Assembly: GCF_007826885.1 (NCBI RefSeq)
Contig: NZ_ML675578.1
Location: 186,001-250,000 of the forward strand
DNA from: Candidatus Nitrosocosmicus arcticus
Lineage (GTDB): Archaea; Thermoproteota; Nitrososphaeria; Nitrososphaerales; Nitrososphaeraceae
Length of the DNA stretch: 64,000 bases
Direction of reading: 5' to 3'
The notes under the pieces were generated by a model. The model had not been told where the DNA came from and searched no databases. It saw only the letters and a list, made by a program, of their open reading frames with translations. How positions within the stretch are numbered: position 1 is the stretch's first letter; each line of letters begins with the position of its first letter. This document shows positions 29,525 through 53,225 of this stretch, piece by piece. Both the position numbers and the translations under genes were made by a program.

Positions 29525-29558
29525 ATTCTATTCAATCTTGAATCGTATCCCCACTGAT
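29525..29558 (+). repeat. Repeat A copy 2, full-length form
   Basis: ATTCTATTCAATC precedes TTGAATCGTATCCCCACTG. It shares the whole left flank with copies 4 and 7 and may be closest to the ancestral form. It lies between the decayed DUF3892 copy and a secreted-protein gene. Confidence 0.75.
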
Positions 29559-45863: not shown

Positions 45864-46715
45864 TTGACTTTGAATATAGGCTGCTCTGGATGGAGTTATG
45901 AAGGCTGGAAAGATAATTTTTATCCAAAGAAAATGGAAAATAAAGAATACTTATCCTATTACTCGAAATTTTTTAGATTTGTTGAAATCGATTCCACATA
46001 TTATCATATTCCTTCGAGATCTACAGTTAGAGGTTGGAAGGACAAAACACCTACAGATTTTAGATTTTCATTGAAATTTCCCAAGGTAATAACTCATGAG
46101 AAGAAATTAGAAGATGTGACAAAACCACTGTCTATATTATTCTATGCATTAGAACCACTAATTGATAAAACTCTAACATTATTAATACAACTTCCACCCT
46201 TTCTTTCAGAAAGCAAAGGCTTTAATCCTTTGCAAGACATGGTTCGACACCTAGATAAGAGATTCAGATATTCTCTAGAAGTGCGACATTCCTCATGGTT
46301 TATTGATAATGTATATGATTTTTTAAAAGAAAATAACATCTCATTAGTCTGGAGCGTAAGGGATGAATTGGAGCCTCCTTCAATTCTAACTTCTGATCAG
46401 GTTTACATCAGATTCATAGGCGATAGAAGCATTTCAGAGATGGACTTTGGTAAGATCGTAAAAAACAGAAGAAACGAGATGCTTGAATATGTAAAGCAGG
46501 TTAGAGATTTTCAGAATGAAAATTCAAGTATACGTGACGTATTAATAGCATTTAACAACCATTTTGCTGGCTTTGGTCCTCAATCCGTTAACGATTTTTT
46601 GAAACTGATGAATATGTCTGAAATAGATTGGAGGACCGAACTGGAAAGTTATGAAAACAATTCTAGTCGTTCCAATGGGAGATATCAGTCTAGTTTATCT
46701 GATTTCCCTAAATAG
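45864..46715 (+). CDS. DUF72 (YecE-like) TIM-barrel protein
   Basis: 283 residues from TTG: MTLNIGCSGWSYEGWKDNFY is the usual DUF72 opening. Other family marks are YYSKFFRFVEIDSTYYHIPS, FRFSLKFPKVITHEKKL, RYSLEVRHSSWF and the end region FNNHFAGFGPQSVNDF. The length matches the family. DUF72 proteins adopt a TIM-barrel fold with a conserved acidic and aromatic pocket; the reaction is unknown. It is monocistronic. Confidence 0.92.
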   Translation: MTLNIGCSGWSYEGWKDNFYPKKMENKEYLSYYSKFFRFVEIDSTYYHIPSRSTVRGWKDKTPTDFRFSLKFPKVITHEKKLEDVTKPLSILFYALEPLIDKTLTLLIQLPPFLSESKGFNPLQDMVRHLDKRFRYSLEVRHSSWFIDNVYDFLKENNISLVWSVRDELEPPSILTSDQVYIRFIGDRSISEMDFGKIVKNRRNEMLEYVKQVRDFQNENSSIRDVLIAFNNHFAGFGPQSVNDFLKLMNMSEIDWRTELESYENNSSRSNGRYQSSLSDFPK

Positions 46716-47144
46716 ACTTACTCCTTAATCAATTTCCGACAAATAAAACTATCATAATATTATTCTGCTCAATCTAAAAGTCATAATTAACAAAAGTTAC
46801 TATATTTGAAACTCAATTCTAGTTTTTATGACATTAAAAAGATTAAGATTAACCATTTTCTGTATGTATTTGATTAAAACTATTCTCAACCAAACAGTTC
46901 GAGAGAATAGATAAAATTTAACTATATGGGATTTAAAAAAATCAAAATGCAACAATAGCATAAATAATATTAAGAAATATTATATAATTCTAATATACTT
47001 TTGATCCCCTGTATACTTATTAGTCATCTTTATGTCCTATTCCTCATGACTAATCCTTATTTGCAAGAATGTCTTTTTGAGTCATTTACATTAAGCAAGA
47101 AGAAAGCAGGATGTTTTAGATGAGAATGGCAGGGGAGAGAAGAG
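46716..47144. other. Intergenic stretch ending in a duplicated regulatory block
   Basis: The last third (46988-47083) is the 96-bp block also found at 51944-52039. No other feature is supported. Confidence 0.45.
46988..47083 (+). promoter_or_regulatory. Conserved 96-bp upstream block, copy 1
   Basis: Identical to 51944-52039 except for one base, and lying exactly 62 bases before the start codon in both places. It contains a TATA-like TAATATACTTTT and an inverted repeat ATTAGTCAT (47019-47027) / ATGACTAAT (47046-47054) with an 18-base spacer. Its conservation exceeds that of the N-terminal coding parts, so it is likely a promoter and operator or a leader RNA. Confidence 0.7.
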
Positions 47145-47732
47145 ATGAACGATAACAAAAAGGCAATGAGAAAATTAAGACTGCAGGTACAAATGTCAGT
47201 TGATGGCTGTATCGCAGGACCCAACAATGAAATGGACTGGTTAGTTTGGGATGATGACTATTTAAAATACCTAAACGATATAACTGAATCAGTTGATACC
47301 ATCATTATGGGACGAAAAATGGTTAAAGGATTTATTCCATATTGGAGAGAAGTCGCGAACAAACCCGATGACCCCATGTATGAAATCGCTAAAAAAATGA
47401 TAGAAACACCAAAAATTGTTTTTACTAAATCATTGAACAAATCTGAGTGGCCAAATACTGAAATTGCAACAGGTGATCTCAAAGATGAAATTACAAAGTT
47501 AAAGAATCTAGATGGCAGAGATATCATAGTTTATGGTGGGATATCATTTGATTCCTCCTTGATTAAAGAAAAACTAATTGATGAATTTTATTTATTTATT
47601 AATCCTATTATATTGGGAAGCGGAAAAACTATCTTCAAAGACTTTAAAGAGATCCAAAAACTTACATTGATCGAATCAAAGGTGTTTGACTGCGGTTTAG
47701 TTTTGCTCCACTATGCGGTAAAGAAAAATTGA
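47145..47732 (+). CDS. Dihydrofolate-reductase-like (RibD C-terminal family) protein, paralogue 1
   Basis: 195 residues. KLRLQVQMSVDGCIAGPNNE and MDWLVWDDDY form the typical start, with SVDTIIMGRKMV as the NADPH-binding segment, and GRDIIVYGGISF and FYLFINPIILGSGKTIF in the C-terminal half. This is the RibD_C/DHFR-like fold whose members reduce pterins or related substrates with NADPH; the actual substrate of these stand-alone forms is unclear. A GGGGAGA ribosome-binding site precedes the ATG. It is a close paralogue of the gene at 52101, with a 187-bp identical stretch. Confidence 0.88.
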   Translation: MNDNKKAMRKLRLQVQMSVDGCIAGPNNEMDWLVWDDDYLKYLNDITESVDTIIMGRKMVKGFIPYWREVANKPDDPMYEIAKKMIETPKIVFTKSLNKSEWPNTEIATGDLKDEITKLKNLDGRDIIVYGGISFDSSLIKEKLIDEFYLFINPIILGSGKTIFKDFKEIQKLTLIESKVFDCGLVLLHYAVKKN

Positions 47733-47779
47733 AAAGTAAGATATCTTTTGATTTTACAATGTTATCTGCCAGGATTGCA

Positions 47780-47804
47780 CTCAAGCTTGAACCGTATCCC
47801 CACG
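47780..47804 (+). repeat. Repeat A copy 6
   Basis: CTCAAGCTTGAACCGTATCC then CCACG, lying about 50 bases after the stop of the reductase-like gene. Confidence 0.7.
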
Positions 47805-47854
47805 TGCTCGATTCAAGGAGAATAGTCTTTTGAAACACTCTCGATTTATTAACA

Positions 47855-47909
47855 TGCAATCGTCTTCGATGGAACCCACGTCCGAAAGACGTAGATTCGA
47901 ATCCCAAAT
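47855..47909 (+). repeat. tRNA-like repeat with small hairpin
   Basis: ACGTC-CGAAA-GACGT forms a 5-bp hairpin, followed by AGATTCGAATCCCAAATTTC and GTCTGG. The second part matches the tails of the repeats at 37756 and 10548. It looks like the 3' half of a tRNA without an acceptor partner. Confidence 0.45.
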
Positions 47910-48459
47910 TTCGTCTGGTTTTTTGTTGTTCAACTTATCAAGTTATTGTCCCTTAAGAAGAAAATATTATTTTACTTAGGTATAACAGATCGAATGTTTT
48001 TTTCATGGGAGTTTCCCTTATGCTTTACATGACTAGTTTATTCTAACATACAACAGGTTACCGTTAAGTATTATGCTTACCAAAATCTACCCCCCAAATT
48101 TAAAACAAATATGTAAATTCATAAATTAGATCCAATACTAAAATTACCAATTTCTAAATAGATTAAAATGGATTATGTTTTATAATGATTCTTTTTGGTA
48201 AGATGCAAGACAATGTAATCCTAATATAATGCGATAATACGGTAATTTGATCGAATGCTAGTTGTGATATGCATCCTAAGCCGCGTTCTTATTACCTTTC
48301 TGAAAAGTTTAAGTGTACTGATAAATATTAAAATGTGTCCTTTTTTTAGTAGTGAAAATGCACCAGAAACCACGGGGTCGATATTTTCATCCCAATCTCG
48401 TCTTTGAAATTAATCTATTACAACAAACGGAGTGAAAAAAAATTAGAATACTTCCTCAA
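47910..48459. other. Intergenic stretch
   Basis: AT-rich. A fragment at 48390-48410 (CATCCCAATCTCGTC) weakly echoes the repeat just described. No gene is supported. Confidence 0.35.
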
Positions 48460-49512
48460 GTGAAATTGGTTATGTATATTGATAGTAAGATAAGAAAAGA
48501 TTATCTTTTCATTGTAGCAGTTATATCGACTCTAATTTTATCGAGTATGACTGTGGTCAACGGCTTTACTAATCTTACATATGGTCAAACAAATGCTACC
48601 CAGGCCAATCCAACAAGCAATGTTACTACAAACCTGGTAAACATACAAGATATTCCATTACAAAAAGTCCGTGTTGGAGATATTGAAATGGCATACAAGA
48701 TGTTTGGTAAGGGTGACCCCATTATACTTCATAATGGTGCTAATTATGGCATGGATGCATGGGACCCAGCCCTTCTTACTCGTCTAGCGTCAAATCACAC
48801 AGTAATTATATTTGATAGTCGTGGAATAGGAAATACTGCATCGGGTTTCGAACCATATTCAATACAGTTACTTGGTAATGATACTGCTGGTTTAATGGAT
48901 GCTTTGGAAATCCCAGAGGCAAACGTTCTTGGATATTCTATGGGTTCTTACATAACTCAACAATTTGCAATCACGCATCCTGATAAGGTTAGTAGTATTA
49001 TGCTAATTGCTGGAACGTGTGGTGGAAAAGATCATGTACCTCCATCAGATGAGTTTATCCAATTACAAGAGGGTATTTTAAATAAATCTCTAAATAATAT
49101 ACCTCTTTCTCAGGATGAAATGAAGTCTCTTGTAAATGCCTCAGAAGGATCAGGATGGATAAAACTGCATCCTGAATCTCTTGATCTTCCAGAAAACATG
49201 ACATTCCAACAAATGAAACCTGGACTTTCATCTGAAGCAATGAACAATCAGTATAAAGGTGCAAAGGCTTGGGTGGCTTCCGACTGGAATGGTGCCTGTG
49301 ACGACCTTGCAAAGATAGACAAACCCATGCTGGTCATAGCAGGTACAGACGATAATGAATTAGTGCCTCATGAAAGTTCTTTGGTCATTGCAAGTAAAGT
49401 TCCAGGAGCATGGCTAGTACATATAAAAGACGCTGGTCATGCTATTATGAATCAATATCCAGATGAAGTTGGTATGGTATTGCAAACATTCCTATCTACT
49501 ATAAAACAATAG
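48460..49512 (+). CDS. Secreted alpha/beta-hydrolase, tandem paralogue 1
   Basis: 350 residues from GTG (ATG at 48472 also possible). The N-terminal signal (FIVAVISTLILSSMTVVNGF) is followed by a Ser/Thr/Asn linker and an alpha/beta-hydrolase domain: HNGANYGMDAWDPALL, then FDSRGIGNT, nucleophile elbow GYSMGS, acid in GTDDNELVP and histidine in DAGHAIMN. The catalytic triad is complete. It is probably an extracellular esterase or lipase-like enzyme. Its neighbour at 49775 is about 70% similar by eye. The pair arose by a tandem duplication that also copied the tRNA-like 3' flank. Confidence 0.85.
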   Translation: MKLVMYIDSKIRKDYLFIVAVISTLILSSMTVVNGFTNLTYGQTNATQANPTSNVTTNLVNIQDIPLQKVRVGDIEMAYKMFGKGDPIILHNGANYGMDAWDPALLTRLASNHTVIIFDSRGIGNTASGFEPYSIQLLGNDTAGLMDALEIPEANVLGYSMGSYITQQFAITHPDKVSSIMLIAGTCGGKDHVPPSDEFIQLQEGILNKSLNNIPLSQDEMKSLVNASEGSGWIKLHPESLDLPENMTFQQMKPGLSSEAMNNQYKGAKAWVASDWNGACDDLAKIDKPMLVIAGTDDNELVPHESSLVIASKVPGAWLVHIKDAGHAIMNQYPDEVGMVLQTFLSTIKQ

Positions 49513-49587
49513 GTGACCAAGCAGGAAAGAAGAATTCAATATTAATTTTATATGCAACGTAGGTATGTGGGATCGAAACAATCTCAA

Positions 49588-49715
49588 AAAAAGTGCGAAG
49601 TGCGGGATTTGAACCCACTTACTATTATTAGAGTTCAATCCCATTGATTATTGAGGGAGAAAGAGAACCCTTAATTCTGAGTCCTAGAGTTATACGCCAT
49701 TAGATGTGCCTCCTC
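49588..49715 (-). pseudogene. Decayed tRNA-Leu(CAG)-like gene
   Basis: On the minus strand GACTCAGAAT forms a CAG anticodon-loop context, as in archaeal tRNA-Leu. GTGGGTTCAAATCCCGC is a complete T-arm, ACTTCGCA a 3' acceptor strand, and a run of seven T follows as a terminator. A matching GCGAAGT 5' acceptor strand is not present, the anticodon stem pairs poorly and about 50 extra bases separate the anticodon and T arms. A TATA-like TATATAAAG stands upstream at about 49752-49760. It is most likely a tRNA remnant; an unusual intron-containing tRNA is less likely. Confidence 0.42.
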
Positions 49716-49774
49716 CCATTAAATTAAGTCCTCATGCAAATAGCCCCCCTCTTTATATACCCAATTGAGTTAGT

Positions 49775-50812
49775 GTGTTAGTGTATAACGATATACAGAT
49801 AAGAAAAGATTATCTTTTCATTGTAGTATTTATATCAACTTTAATTTTCTCAAGTACAACTTTGATCAACGGTTTTACTAATGTTGTGTATGGTCAAACA
49901 AATGTTACCCAGACCAATTCAAGCAATACTACCAATTTGGTAAATACCCAAGACATCCCATTAGAAAAAGTCCGTGTTGGAGATATTGAAATGGCGTATA
50001 AAATGTTTGGCAAGGGTGATCCTTTGATACTTCATAATGGTGCTTCTGATAATATGGATGCATGGGACCCAGCCCTTTTAAGTAGACTAGCGTCAAATAA
50101 CACTGTAATTGTGTTTGATAGTCGTGGAATAGGAAATACAACTGTTGGTACTGAACCATATTCTATAAAGTTACTTGCAAATGATACTGCTGGTTTAATG
50201 GACGCTTTGAAGATACAACAAGCAAATGTTTTAGGATATTCTTTAGGTACATTTACAACTCAACAATTTGCAATCACGCATCCTGATAAGGTTAGTAGTA
50301 TTACGTTAATTGCAGGATCATGCGGTGGTAAAGATGGGATACCTAAACCACCCGAGTTTTTAAAATTGCAAAAAGATATTGCAAACAAAACTCAAAATAA
50401 TATAACCGTTCCTCAAGAAGATTTCAAAGCTCTTGTAACCGCATCATTAGGATCAGGATGGGTAAAGCTGCATCCTGAATCTGCAAAGATTCCAGAAAAC
50501 AGTTCCCTATTAGGGTCAAAGCCCGGTCTTTCCGCTGAAGCATTGAACAATCAGGCAGATGCTGGATGGGGTTGGGAGGCTCAGAACTGGAGCGGTGTCT
50601 GTGACGACCTCGCAAAGATAGACAAGCCTCTGTTGGTCATAACAGGTACAGATGATAACCAGTACAATCCTCATCAGAATGCTTTAGTCATTGCAAGTAA
50701 AGTTCCAGGAGCCTGGCTAGTACAGATAAAAGACGCTGGTCATGCCGTTCCAAATCAATATCCAGAGGAAGTCGGTAAAATAATAGAAACATTCTTGTCG
50801 ACTGTAAAATAG
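49775..50812 (+). CDS. Secreted alpha/beta-hydrolase, tandem paralogue 2
   Basis: 345 residues from GTG. It has the same layout as the gene at 48460: signal peptide (FIVVFISTLIFSSTTLINGF), linker, then HNGASDNMDAWDPALL, nucleophile elbow GYSLGT, GTDDNQYNP and DAGHAVPN. The catalytic triad is complete. A TATA box (CTTTATATAC at 49751-49760) lies about 20 bases before the start. Compared with the first copy, most changes are in the lid region (about residues 200-270), suggesting different substrates. Confidence 0.85.
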   Translation: MLVYNDIQIRKDYLFIVVFISTLIFSSTTLINGFTNVVYGQTNVTQTNSSNTTNLVNTQDIPLEKVRVGDIEMAYKMFGKGDPLILHNGASDNMDAWDPALLSRLASNNTVIVFDSRGIGNTTVGTEPYSIKLLANDTAGLMDALKIQQANVLGYSLGTFTTQQFAITHPDKVSSITLIAGSCGGKDGIPKPPEFLKLQKDIANKTQNNITVPQEDFKALVTASLGSGWVKLHPESAKIPENSSLLGSKPGLSAEALNNQADAGWGWEAQNWSGVCDDLAKIDKPLLVITGTDDNQYNPHQNALVIASKVPGAWLVQIKDAGHAVPNQYPEEVGKIIETFLSTVK

Positions 50813-50868
50813 TGGGAGACCAAGCGGAAAGAAGAATCCGATATTAATTTTGTACGCAATATAGACAA

Positions 50869-50925
50869 GCGGGTTCAAATCAATCATAAAAAAGTGCGAA
50901 GTGCGGGATTTGGATCCTTCTCTAT
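50869..50925 (-). other. tRNA-Leu-like 3' fragment, duplicated copy
   Basis: On the minus strand GGATCCAAATCCCGCACTTC and GCACTTTTTT repeat the 3' end of the tRNA-like sequence at 49588, without the 5' part. It follows hydrolase copy 2 exactly as the other follows copy 1, so it came along in the tandem duplication. Confidence 0.5.
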
Positions 50926-50949
50926 TGGTTAGTGTCAAAATTAACTTTG

Positions 50950-50982
50950 GATTCTATTCAATCTTGAACCGTATCCCCACGC
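50950..50982 (+). repeat. Repeat A copy 7, full-length form
   Basis: GATTCTATTCAATC then TTGAACCGTATCCCCACG. The left flank matches copies 2 and 4. Confidence 0.75.
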
Positions 50983-51497
50983 GCCCAAACCAGTGATCCC
51001 TTTCATGGCGATATTCTCTATTCTAAAGCCATGTCATAATATACAATGCCCTTCAGGGATCCACAAAATAGATCAAATAAAGAAACTTGTGTCGATAGAG
51101 AGGCTATTATGAGCCAGTTCCGTGTTTGGCCTTTCCTCTCTACCATAATAATGACCTTCGGTGAACGGAACAGAAACCCGGGTCATCCTTTCAAATACTA
51201 TTTTATCAACGTTTTATTTAAACAATGATTATCAATATTCTGTAAATCTTCTTGACTTCTACGGATAAGCTCCATTTTGTATATAGGCTCTCTCAAAACC
51301 GTGTCCAATTCTACTCGAAAATCAACACAATATTTCAGACCCCAATTTTGTGACTATCACAAAAATTTAAATTTAGTAGTGGTAGATATTTTTGGAGAAT
51401 AAAGAGAATTCAAATAGGTATTATAGAAATAGAAAATTATTAATGAATAAGTGTTAAATTAATCAAAAGAGAACTTTGATTGTTTCTTTTTATAGAG
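50983..51497. other. Intergenic stretch
   Basis: Two overlapping frames of about 35-60 codons near 51046-51230 have no start context or family. Nothing else is seen. Confidence 0.35.
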
Positions 51498-51653
51498 TTA
51501 TTCTTTCTCACCCTCTTCCTTTTCCAGGATTTCCTTTTTGATTGATTTTAATATTTTCTTATCCTTTTCTTCTGGAGTATTTTCGGATATTCCCACTATA
51601 TTTGATTCCTCATACGCAAATTCATTTTCTCCGCTGTCATTAATCGACGACAT
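51498..51653 (-). CDS. Small acidic, highly charged protein
   Basis: 51 residues: MSSINDSGENEFAYEESNIV, then SENTPEEKDKKILKSIKKEI and LEKEEGEKE. The composition (Glu, Lys, Asp, Ser) and a predicted C-terminal helix suggest a soluble cytoplasmic protein. Clean ATG start; no family is recognised. Such short acidic proteins occur often in Nitrososphaerales genomes. Confidence 0.58.
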   Translation of the reverse strand: MSSINDSGENEFAYEESNIVGISENTPEEKDKKILKSIKKEILEKEEGEKE

Positions 51654-51737
51654 ATTAGTAACTTTTATACAAAAAAGGTTAACTATCTGTTTCTTTATTT
51701 TCTTGAAACAGAGAAGTCATCACTTTACTGAGATTAT

Positions 51738-51763
51738 ACAACCTTGAATCGTATCCCCACGGA
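51738..51763 (+). repeat. Repeat A copy 8
   Basis: ACAACCTTGAATCGTATCCC then CACGGA. It lies 85 bases upstream of the small acidic gene, in the opposite direction. Confidence 0.72.
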
Positions 51764-51943
51764 CATATTCAAGCAAATATAAGATATTCAGTAATTGGCT
51801 AGAGTTCTACTCTGGTTTATTCTTGACCACCTAGAGATTACAAATCTGACGCATTTCGTAGTTTCAAAGAATTGACATTGAGTATAAGTATTCAGAGATC
51901 AAGATGCAACAATATATAAAGAAAATTAAGGAATAATCTACAC

Positions 51944-52039
51944 TTCTAATATACTTTTGATCCCCTGTATACTTATTAGTCATCTTTATTTCCTATTCCT
52001 CATGACTAATCCTTATTTGCAAGAATGTCTTTTTGAGTC
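51944..52039 (+). promoter_or_regulatory. Conserved 96-bp upstream block, copy 2
   Basis: Differs by one base from 46988-47083 and is placed identically, 62 bases before its start codon. Inverted repeat arms ATTAGTCAT at 51975-51983 and ATGACTAAT at 52002-52010. Confidence 0.7.
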
Positions 52040-52100
52040 GATGAAAATAATCAGAAGGAGAAAGCAAGATCTTCTAAATGAAAATAGTCGGCGAGTATAG

Positions 52101-52694
52101 ATGAATAATAATAATAAAGTAATGAGAAAATTAAAACTGCAGGTACAAATGTCCATAGATGGTTGCATAGCAGGACCAAATAATGAAATGGACTGGATGG
52201 TCTTTTATGGGGATGAAAAACTCAAAGAATATGAAAACAGGTTGCACGAGCCAGTTGATACCATTCTTCTGGGAAGAAAAATGACCAATGAATTTGTTTC
52301 CTATTGGTCTAATGTGATGAACAAACCTGAAGACCCTGAATATGCATTCGCTAAAAAAATGATAGAAACACCAAAAATTGTTTTTACTAAATCATTGAAC
52401 AAATCTGAGTGGCCAAATACTGAAATTGCAACAGGTGATCTCAAAGATGAAATTACAAAGTTAAAGAATCTAGATGGCAGAGATATCATAGTTTATGGTG
52501 GGATATCATTTGATTCCTCCTTGATTAAAGAAAACTTAATCGATGAATTTTATTTGTTTATTAATCCTGTAACAATTGGGAATGGAAAGACCATATTTAA
52601 GGACCTAAAAGAGATCCGTAAGTTCACCCTTATTGAGTCAATAGCGTTTGACTCTGGAATAGTTTTGCTCCACTATGAGGTAAAGAAAAATTGA
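52101..52694 (+). CDS. Dihydrofolate-reductase-like (RibD C-terminal family) protein, paralogue 2
   Basis: 197 residues with the same motifs as the gene at 47145 (MSIDGCIAGPNNEMDWMVFY, then PVDTILLGRKMTNEFVSYW). Residues 83-144 are encoded by DNA identical to the paralogue (52348-52534), whereas the first 80 and last 50 codons have diverged clearly. This uneven identity points to recent gene conversion. The two proteins probably share cofactor use and differ in substrate pocket. Confidence 0.88.
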   Translation: MNNNNKVMRKLKLQVQMSIDGCIAGPNNEMDWMVFYGDEKLKEYENRLHEPVDTILLGRKMTNEFVSYWSNVMNKPEDPEYAFAKKMIETPKIVFTKSLNKSEWPNTEIATGDLKDEITKLKNLDGRDIIVYGGISFDSSLIKENLIDEFYLFINPVTIGNGKTIFKDLKEIRKFTLIESIAFDSGIVLLHYEVKKN

Positions 52695-53225
52695 CAGCAG
52701 GATACATGAATAAATGAATAAAAAAATCCGTTGGTTATTTTTTGTATATTAATTCTTTTTGAGAGTACCGACAATTATGAAATCCTTCCATAAGAATAAA
52801 GAATTAATACTGTTTCAAAATATTTGAGATCATATTAAACATTGATATTATTTATTGGAACACGATACTTGTATTAAACTAAAACTATCTTGTAGCGGTA
52901 TATTGTAGCACCACAAGTAGAAAATGTATTTATACATTGCAAATTTCCTGTACATGAAATACTTAAAGTCCAATATTTTTGAATATGACTCCCAGGGTTT
53001 TTTTGTATATGACTCCATTTAATACGACTCCAGGTAAAGATACCGGTCCCAACTAAATTCTAACGCACTTATCCCTCCAAAGTCTTTTTTTCTTAATTTC
53101 AATCTATATGTATTCTAAATTCAGATTACCAAAATGTCTAGATTCAAGAGTGTTTGATTACGATAATTTGGTGGGATTTTAGTGAAGGCTATTAATCATG
53201 AAGTCTTTAAAGTAACTGGGAATTC
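52695..53225. other. Intergenic stretch with short direct repeats
   Basis: ATATGACTCC occurs at about 52983 and 53005 with a variant (ATACGACTCC) at 53021. No gene is supported. Confidence 0.35.

Follow-up and report, generated by a model that had tools for sequence, protein, structure and literature searches.

Two reductase genes with shared patches

In the 64-kb window analysed here (the whole 64,000-nt stretch of DNA from Candidatus Nitrosocosmicus arcticus, a soil ammonia-oxidizing archaeon), two paralogous genes lie about 5 kb apart on the plus strand, reductase A at 47145–47732 (195 aa) and reductase B at 52101–52694 (197 aa), with protein identity of 78%. The original prediction held that they share a coding tract homogenised by gene conversion and a conserved upstream block with an inverted repeat that keeps their regulation in step. 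The locus raises the question of how these two patches became so alike, and what the upstream patch does.

Both proteins gave a full-length match to the RibD_C domain (PF01872) in Pfam, and their nearest PDB structure is 2gd9, the YyaP protein of B. subtilis. They resemble YyaP-like proteins in domain and nearest structure and are unlike a riboflavin-pathway reductase (RibD or archaeal rib_reduct), an assignment ruled out by scores that fall short of the cut-offs of TIGR01508 (37 against the 186 bits needed) and TIGR00227. Because the scores lie far under these cut-offs, ‘DHFR-family reductase’ is the safe name for A and B.

The DNA between the reductases holds two alpha/beta hydrolase paralogs (Pfam; 48460–49512 and 49775–50812), a secreted-looking tandem duplicate whose unit of approximately 1.3 kb includes a tRNA-like end. 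This tRNA-like sequence, with a GGGTTCAAATCCCGCACTTCGCAC end and a possible intron, lies on the minus strand at 49587–49715, 3′ of the first hydrolase gene, and a truncated second copy lies at 50888–50917, 3′ of the second; ARAGORN made zero tRNA calls on the whole window, despite these visible tRNA-like pieces.

A separate intergenic repeat, GATTnTATTCAACCTTGAAYCGTATCCCCACG (core CAACCTTGAAYCGTATCCCCACG), occurs on the plus strand at 29533, 44301, 47782, 50959, 51739, 57247 and 58063 of the window. The genome holds 20 copies, against none for a reversed control, and nearly all fall in two clusters, one at 215–244 kb of contig C1 with all copies on the plus strand and one at 76–123 kb of contig C9 with all on the minus strand. 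The repeat is also one-directional in two complete relatives (27 of 28 and 19 of 19 copies), where it is mostly gathered in one region of approximately 100–120 kb overlapping the reductase paralogs. No clear integrase was found beside the arrays, and the repeat may be a cassette-like or polarised element.

Gene conversion from reductase B to reductase A

Pairwise comparison and comparison with relatives placed the shared coding tract at 47386–47572 in reductase A and 52348–52534 in reductase B. The claimed identity over 187 nt was exact and the flanks were clearly diverged: in 60-nt sliding windows, identity was 0.56–0.85 on the 5′ side, 1.00 in the tract and 0.67–0.89 on the 3′ side. Measured against the background of full-length paralogs of the genus, A and B agreed at 59 consecutive polymorphic third codon positions, whereas 20,000 permutations gave concordant runs with a mean of 12 and a maximum of 32 (P ≤ 5e-5). 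An assembler would not turn diverged copies into identical ones, which makes assembly error an unlikely source of the tract.

Comparison with other species, using one genome per species, revealed the direction of transfer. The gene A tract was at a distance of 0.113–0.145 from clade-B genes and 0.172–0.247 from its own clade-A orthologs, whereas the gene A flanks were at 0.108–0.159 from clade-A orthologs and 0.255–0.290 from clade B; in bootstrap replicates the A tract was nearer to clade B in 98% and the A flanks in 0%. By their flanks, A grouped with G013_238, G003_C11 and G007_646, and B with G011_C353, G006_C471 and G011_C171. The tract is B-like in both copies and the conflict between tract and flank phylogeny is confined to gene A, whose flanks are of clade A; B was therefore the donor and A the recipient. 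The predicted gene conversion is thus borne out by the identical run and by the distances to relatives, with donor and recipient now nameable, and we regard the B-to-A event in the coding tract as well supported, real and ordinary in kind.

Other within-genome pairs gave a similar signal in few cases, namely one species with 98 nt (P = 0.011) and another pair with an 18-position concordant run (P = 0.001). Patchy homogenisation of diverged paralogs within one genome is known in archaea from mtrA-1 and mtrA-2 of methanogens (PMC4632066). In contrast to that pair, the genes studied here, approximately 5 kb apart, carry one recent 187-nt tract and a promoter patch, and the homogenisation is not long-lasting across lineages, with little of it in the other within-genome pairs.

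The upstream blocks

The 96-nt upstream blocks, at 46988–47083 for reductase A and 51944–52039 for reductase B, differ at a single base, as had been claimed, the sole mismatch lying at 47034/51990. The distance between blocks A and B was 0.049, in comparison with 0.147–0.43 for other within-genome paralog pairs and at least 0.087 from either block to any ortholog. The same block stands 5′ of almost every member of the reductase family in Nitrosocosmicus (one to five per genome where present); constraint therefore contributes to the likeness of A and B, and the one-mismatch identity could partly reflect strong constraint and not conversion. The stretch between the patches (47084–47385) was not homogenised. 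The simplest account is that the block was probably also converted from B to A, as a second patch or as part of one patchy event. A search of 46700–52900 against Rfam returned chance matches only, with no credible match in the block, which is therefore not a described riboswitch.

A probable promoter motif restricted to Nitrososphaeraceae

Six bases into the block begins a 27-nt motif, TATACTTTTGATCCCTTGYATACTTAT, that we found with at most 3 mismatches in 26 of 70 Nitrososphaeraceae genomes, at 68 distinct places, with 0 matches for the reversed-pattern control. A relaxed form of the motif gave about 86 matches against 1 in the control, and a stricter form, run on 250 genomes of the order, was present in 21 of the 70 genomes within the family and in 0 of the 180 genomes of other families. 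In the window, motif searches placed the copies at 46994–47020 (reductase A, TATACTTTTGATCCCCTGTATACTTAT) and 51950–51976 (reductase B), both on the plus strand, copy A spanning approximately −52 to −26 relative to the ATG of a leader open reading frame (ORF) described below.

Stacking of 99 distinct sites revealed information outside the search pattern, with AAC on its immediate 5′ side and A/T-A/T-A on its immediate 3′ side, the latter completing a TATA box. For copy A, column information and ATG spacing placed the TATA-box-like element ACTTATTAG at 47015–47023 on the plus strand, centred approximately 27 nt before the leader ATG. An ATG followed the motif by 24–28 nt at 90 of the 99 sites, in comparison with a mean of 12.7 in control windows. 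Leaderless archaeal promoters have a TATA box approximately 27 nt before the start codon together with an upstream factor site, and a TATA element centred at this distance from the ATG is what a leaderless transcript requires. The fixed spacing of motif and TATA box to the ATG thus points to mRNAs that probably start leaderless, their predicted start positions being taken from the TATA-to-ATG spacing only. Haloarchaeal transcripts reported to have been mapped by dRNA-seq (PMC4983044) are an example of leaderless archaeal mRNAs.

In the open-licence full texts searched, we found no description of the motif, its target set or its restriction to Nitrososphaeraceae, which sets it apart from known leaderless archaeal promoters, and literature searches of the same kind for promoter or regulon work in these archaea gave nothing relevant. 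We read the upstream block as a lineage-specific promoter unit, apparently undescribed within the papers searched.

A leader ORF between promoter and reductase

At the reductase loci, the ATG 3′ of the motif is not the reductase start but that of a short leader ORF. Leader ORF A (47046–47123, plus strand) has 25 codons, MTNPYLQECLFESFTLSKKKAGCFR followed by a stop, and a predicted leaderless start; leader ORF B (52002–52100, plus strand) has 32 codons, MTNPYLQECLFESMKIIRRRKQDLLNENSRRV followed by a stop that abuts the reductase ATG. Across the genus, intact copies encode MTNPYLQE(C/Y)xFESxxLxRRRKQ... in 24–35 codons, and each of the 20 genus sequences in the analysis keeps this frame open, starting with an ATG at +25 to +27. 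Codons 2–17 contained no stops in 15 indel-free sequences, in comparison with a mean of 18 in column shuffles, of which 0.7% had none. Internal indels occur at two sites, with gaps of 6 or 9 nt that keep the frame; the remaining gaps (2 nt) lie only at variable downstream positions.

Wherever an intact copy in the genus has a leader, the leader stop falls −8 to +27 nt from the reductase ATG, and the reductase ATG is mostly preceded by a G-rich Shine–Dalgarno-like sequence, GGGGAG just 5′ of the start in the case of reductase A. The placement of the stop near or overlapping the reductase start suggests translational coupling, which we consider likely from the sequences at hand, with the leader ORF itself presumably translated. 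Two reductase copies in relatives are decayed (L124 on G012:C44 and L128 on G003:C40); their stop-to-ATG distances are +58 and +63 and their leader ORFs are broken too. A relative has one further paralog (L040, on G012:C43) in which ATA replaces the leader ATG.

The leader ORF could instead be a non-functional by-product, a leftover 5′ coding end that persists only because the promoter unit was recruited, with its start codon, before another gene. Short leaders 5′ of VOC genes (MSKSNVTEMEKERCQQ followed by a stop) do resemble the N-termini of DUF1428 proteins under the same promoter (MNKSDVMEMEKEIGNQ...), and the leader pN/pS is not reduced, its value of 0.78 giving P = 0.34 against column shuffles, so that the conserved part could be a DNA or RNA signal. 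The leader indels, however, preserve the frame, and the short distance between leader stop and reductase ATG fails only in the decayed copies. On this balance we regard a by-product as somewhat unlikely and favour a leader coupled to the reductase. Its nearest counterparts are leader peptides and coupled upstream ORFs of resistance and biosynthesis operons in bacteria, such as peTrpL, likewise short ORFs between promoter and enzyme gene that end at the enzyme start, going by an excerpt of PMC7298713; in contrast to leaders of the type presented there, the one described here is archaeal and has a predicted leaderless initiation.

Target genes and the nature of the recognition site

RibD_C, DUF1428, VOC/glyoxalase or PhnB-type genes follow 83 of the 97 usable sites; a further 9 precede genes for DrrA-like ABC ATPases, cupins, DoxX, a methyltransferase or a PNPOx-like protein, and 5 have no recognisable target. 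As the BLAST representatives were taken from the same sites, these counts are a classification of sites and not an enrichment test. The seven sites in the genome of Ca. N. arcticus precede reductases A and B (both RibD_C), two DUF1428 genes, two VOC genes and one PhnB gene. Families of this kind are characteristic of gene sets for small-molecule detoxification, and we infer such a role for the targets. Pfam scanning of 10 ORFs near the other sites of this genome revealed no HTH domain that would mark an adjacent regulator.

The relaxed motif lies 5′ of a gene for a DrrA-like ABC transporter ATPase at G007:C1:2810567, G005:C1:1747603, G003:C12:217159 and G009:C31:36843, that is, in four Nitrosocosmicus genomes; the relaxed motif search found no such site in the genome of Ca. 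N. arcticus. Unrelated families under the same promoter also share the start M(S/N)KSNxxxMEKE, seen in the L178 leader ORF (about 104–151) and in the N-termini of L132 and L185, which suggests that the promoter and the first codons moved between genes as one unit.

Which protein would read the motif bears on its interpretation. The motif is asymmetric, has no dyad, adjoins the TATA box and keeps a fixed spacing, features that would suit an extended BRE/TATA promoter for a specialised basal factor, a TFB paralog, in place of a classical activator or repressor, and ammonia-oxidizing archaea encode several TFBs. But the strongest part of the motif, TATACTTTTGATCCC, covers the stretch from approximately 21 to approximately 6 bp 5′ of the TATA-like element and so extends beyond the usual 6–7 bp of a BRE. 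We consider a TFB paralog unlikely and prefer a dedicated regulator, a putative activator, that would bind the motif.

The inverted repeat

The repeat on which the original prediction had based shared regulation, ATTAGTCAT-N18-ATGACTAAT, is present in both blocks, at 47019–47054 (plus strand) and 51975–52010, whereas shuffled windows with 3 mismatches allowed gave an expectation of 0.15. It would be an operator or an RNA hairpin controlling both genes, and its 9-bp arms are perfect in both copies; when the block was shuffled by mononucleotides, 0.3% of the shuffles contained such a repeat. The repeat is perfect only in its own genome, however, and is not conserved as a dyad in relatives. The left arm, ATTAGTCAT, overlaps the end of the TATA-like element, and the right arm, ATGACTAAT, is the start-codon region of the leader ORF. 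In a comparison of 22 sequences from the genus, most retain the outer four to five pairs, owing to the retention of both the TATA end and the leader start; position 6 pairs in 2 of 22 and positions 7–9 in 10–12 of 22, with no compensating changes, and in about half of the sequences ACC or a similar sequence takes the place of the left arm's TCAT half. The repeat is absent at motif sites in other genera, and the block has no credible Rfam match. We therefore reject the dyad as a conserved operator, its pairing being lost across the genus, and a hairpin or operator role is very improbable. Of the proposal that regulation is kept in step, the shared promoter and the unusually close blocks stand and the repeat as regulatory element falls.

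Equally improbable is that conversion and ordinary duplication suffice, with copying by itself explaining the likeness of the blocks and no special regulatory unit involved: conversion is clear and the blocks of this genome are unusually alike, but most Nitrosocosmicus genomes carry the same block 5′ of reductase paralogs, and the 27-nt core precedes unrelated families in other genera at a fixed distance from the ATG, which refutes this as a full account.

Proposed model

We propose, with a probability of about 0.8, that the locus combines a Nitrososphaeraceae-specific regulon promoter unit with a leaderless, coupled leader ORF, overlaid by a recent conversion from B to A. Of this, the analysis shows the motif with its target families, its spacing to the ATG and its taxonomic range, as well as the conversion of the coding tract and the direction it took. 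In the model, a regulator, most likely an activator, would bind (C/T)NAAC-TATACTTTTGATCCCTT directly 5′ of the TATA box, A[CT]TT[AT]T[AT][AT]A, centred at approximately −27, and would control genes for RibD_C/DHFR-like, VOC, PhnB and DUF1428 proteins together with a few for ABC exporter, cupin, DoxX and PNPOx-like proteins. For most targets, the predicted mRNA start coincides with or adjoins the coding ATG, whereas at the Nitrosocosmicus reductases that ATG opens the leader, whose stop overlaps or adjoins the Shine–Dalgarno sequence and reductase start, so that reductase translation would probably depend on, or be tuned by, translation of the leader. The recent conversion from B to A replaced a 187-nt coding tract and most likely also the 96-nt block with promoter and leader.

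A more far-reaching version, which we offer tentatively and hold to be possible, is a dedicated stress and detoxification regulon of Nitrososphaeraceae (DHFR-like reductases, VOC/PhnB, DUF1428 and a drug-type ABC exporter) that uses a promoter code of its own; in Nitrosocosmicus, a conserved leader peptide with leaderless initiation would act as a sensing device that controls the reductase branch at the level of translation.

Judging by the papers searched, the control of transcription in ammonia-oxidizing archaea has been charted only sparsely, and genetic tools for these organisms are still lacking (PMC11897584). The 27-nt motif with its exact spacing and target set provides a hypothesis for a stress or xenobiotic response of abundant soil nitrifiers and a candidate for an inducible promoter. 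Through the leader ORF, translational coupling in archaea becomes testable at one repeated gene type, and the conversion patches illustrate a partial re-homogenisation of paralogs that can extend to the promoter.
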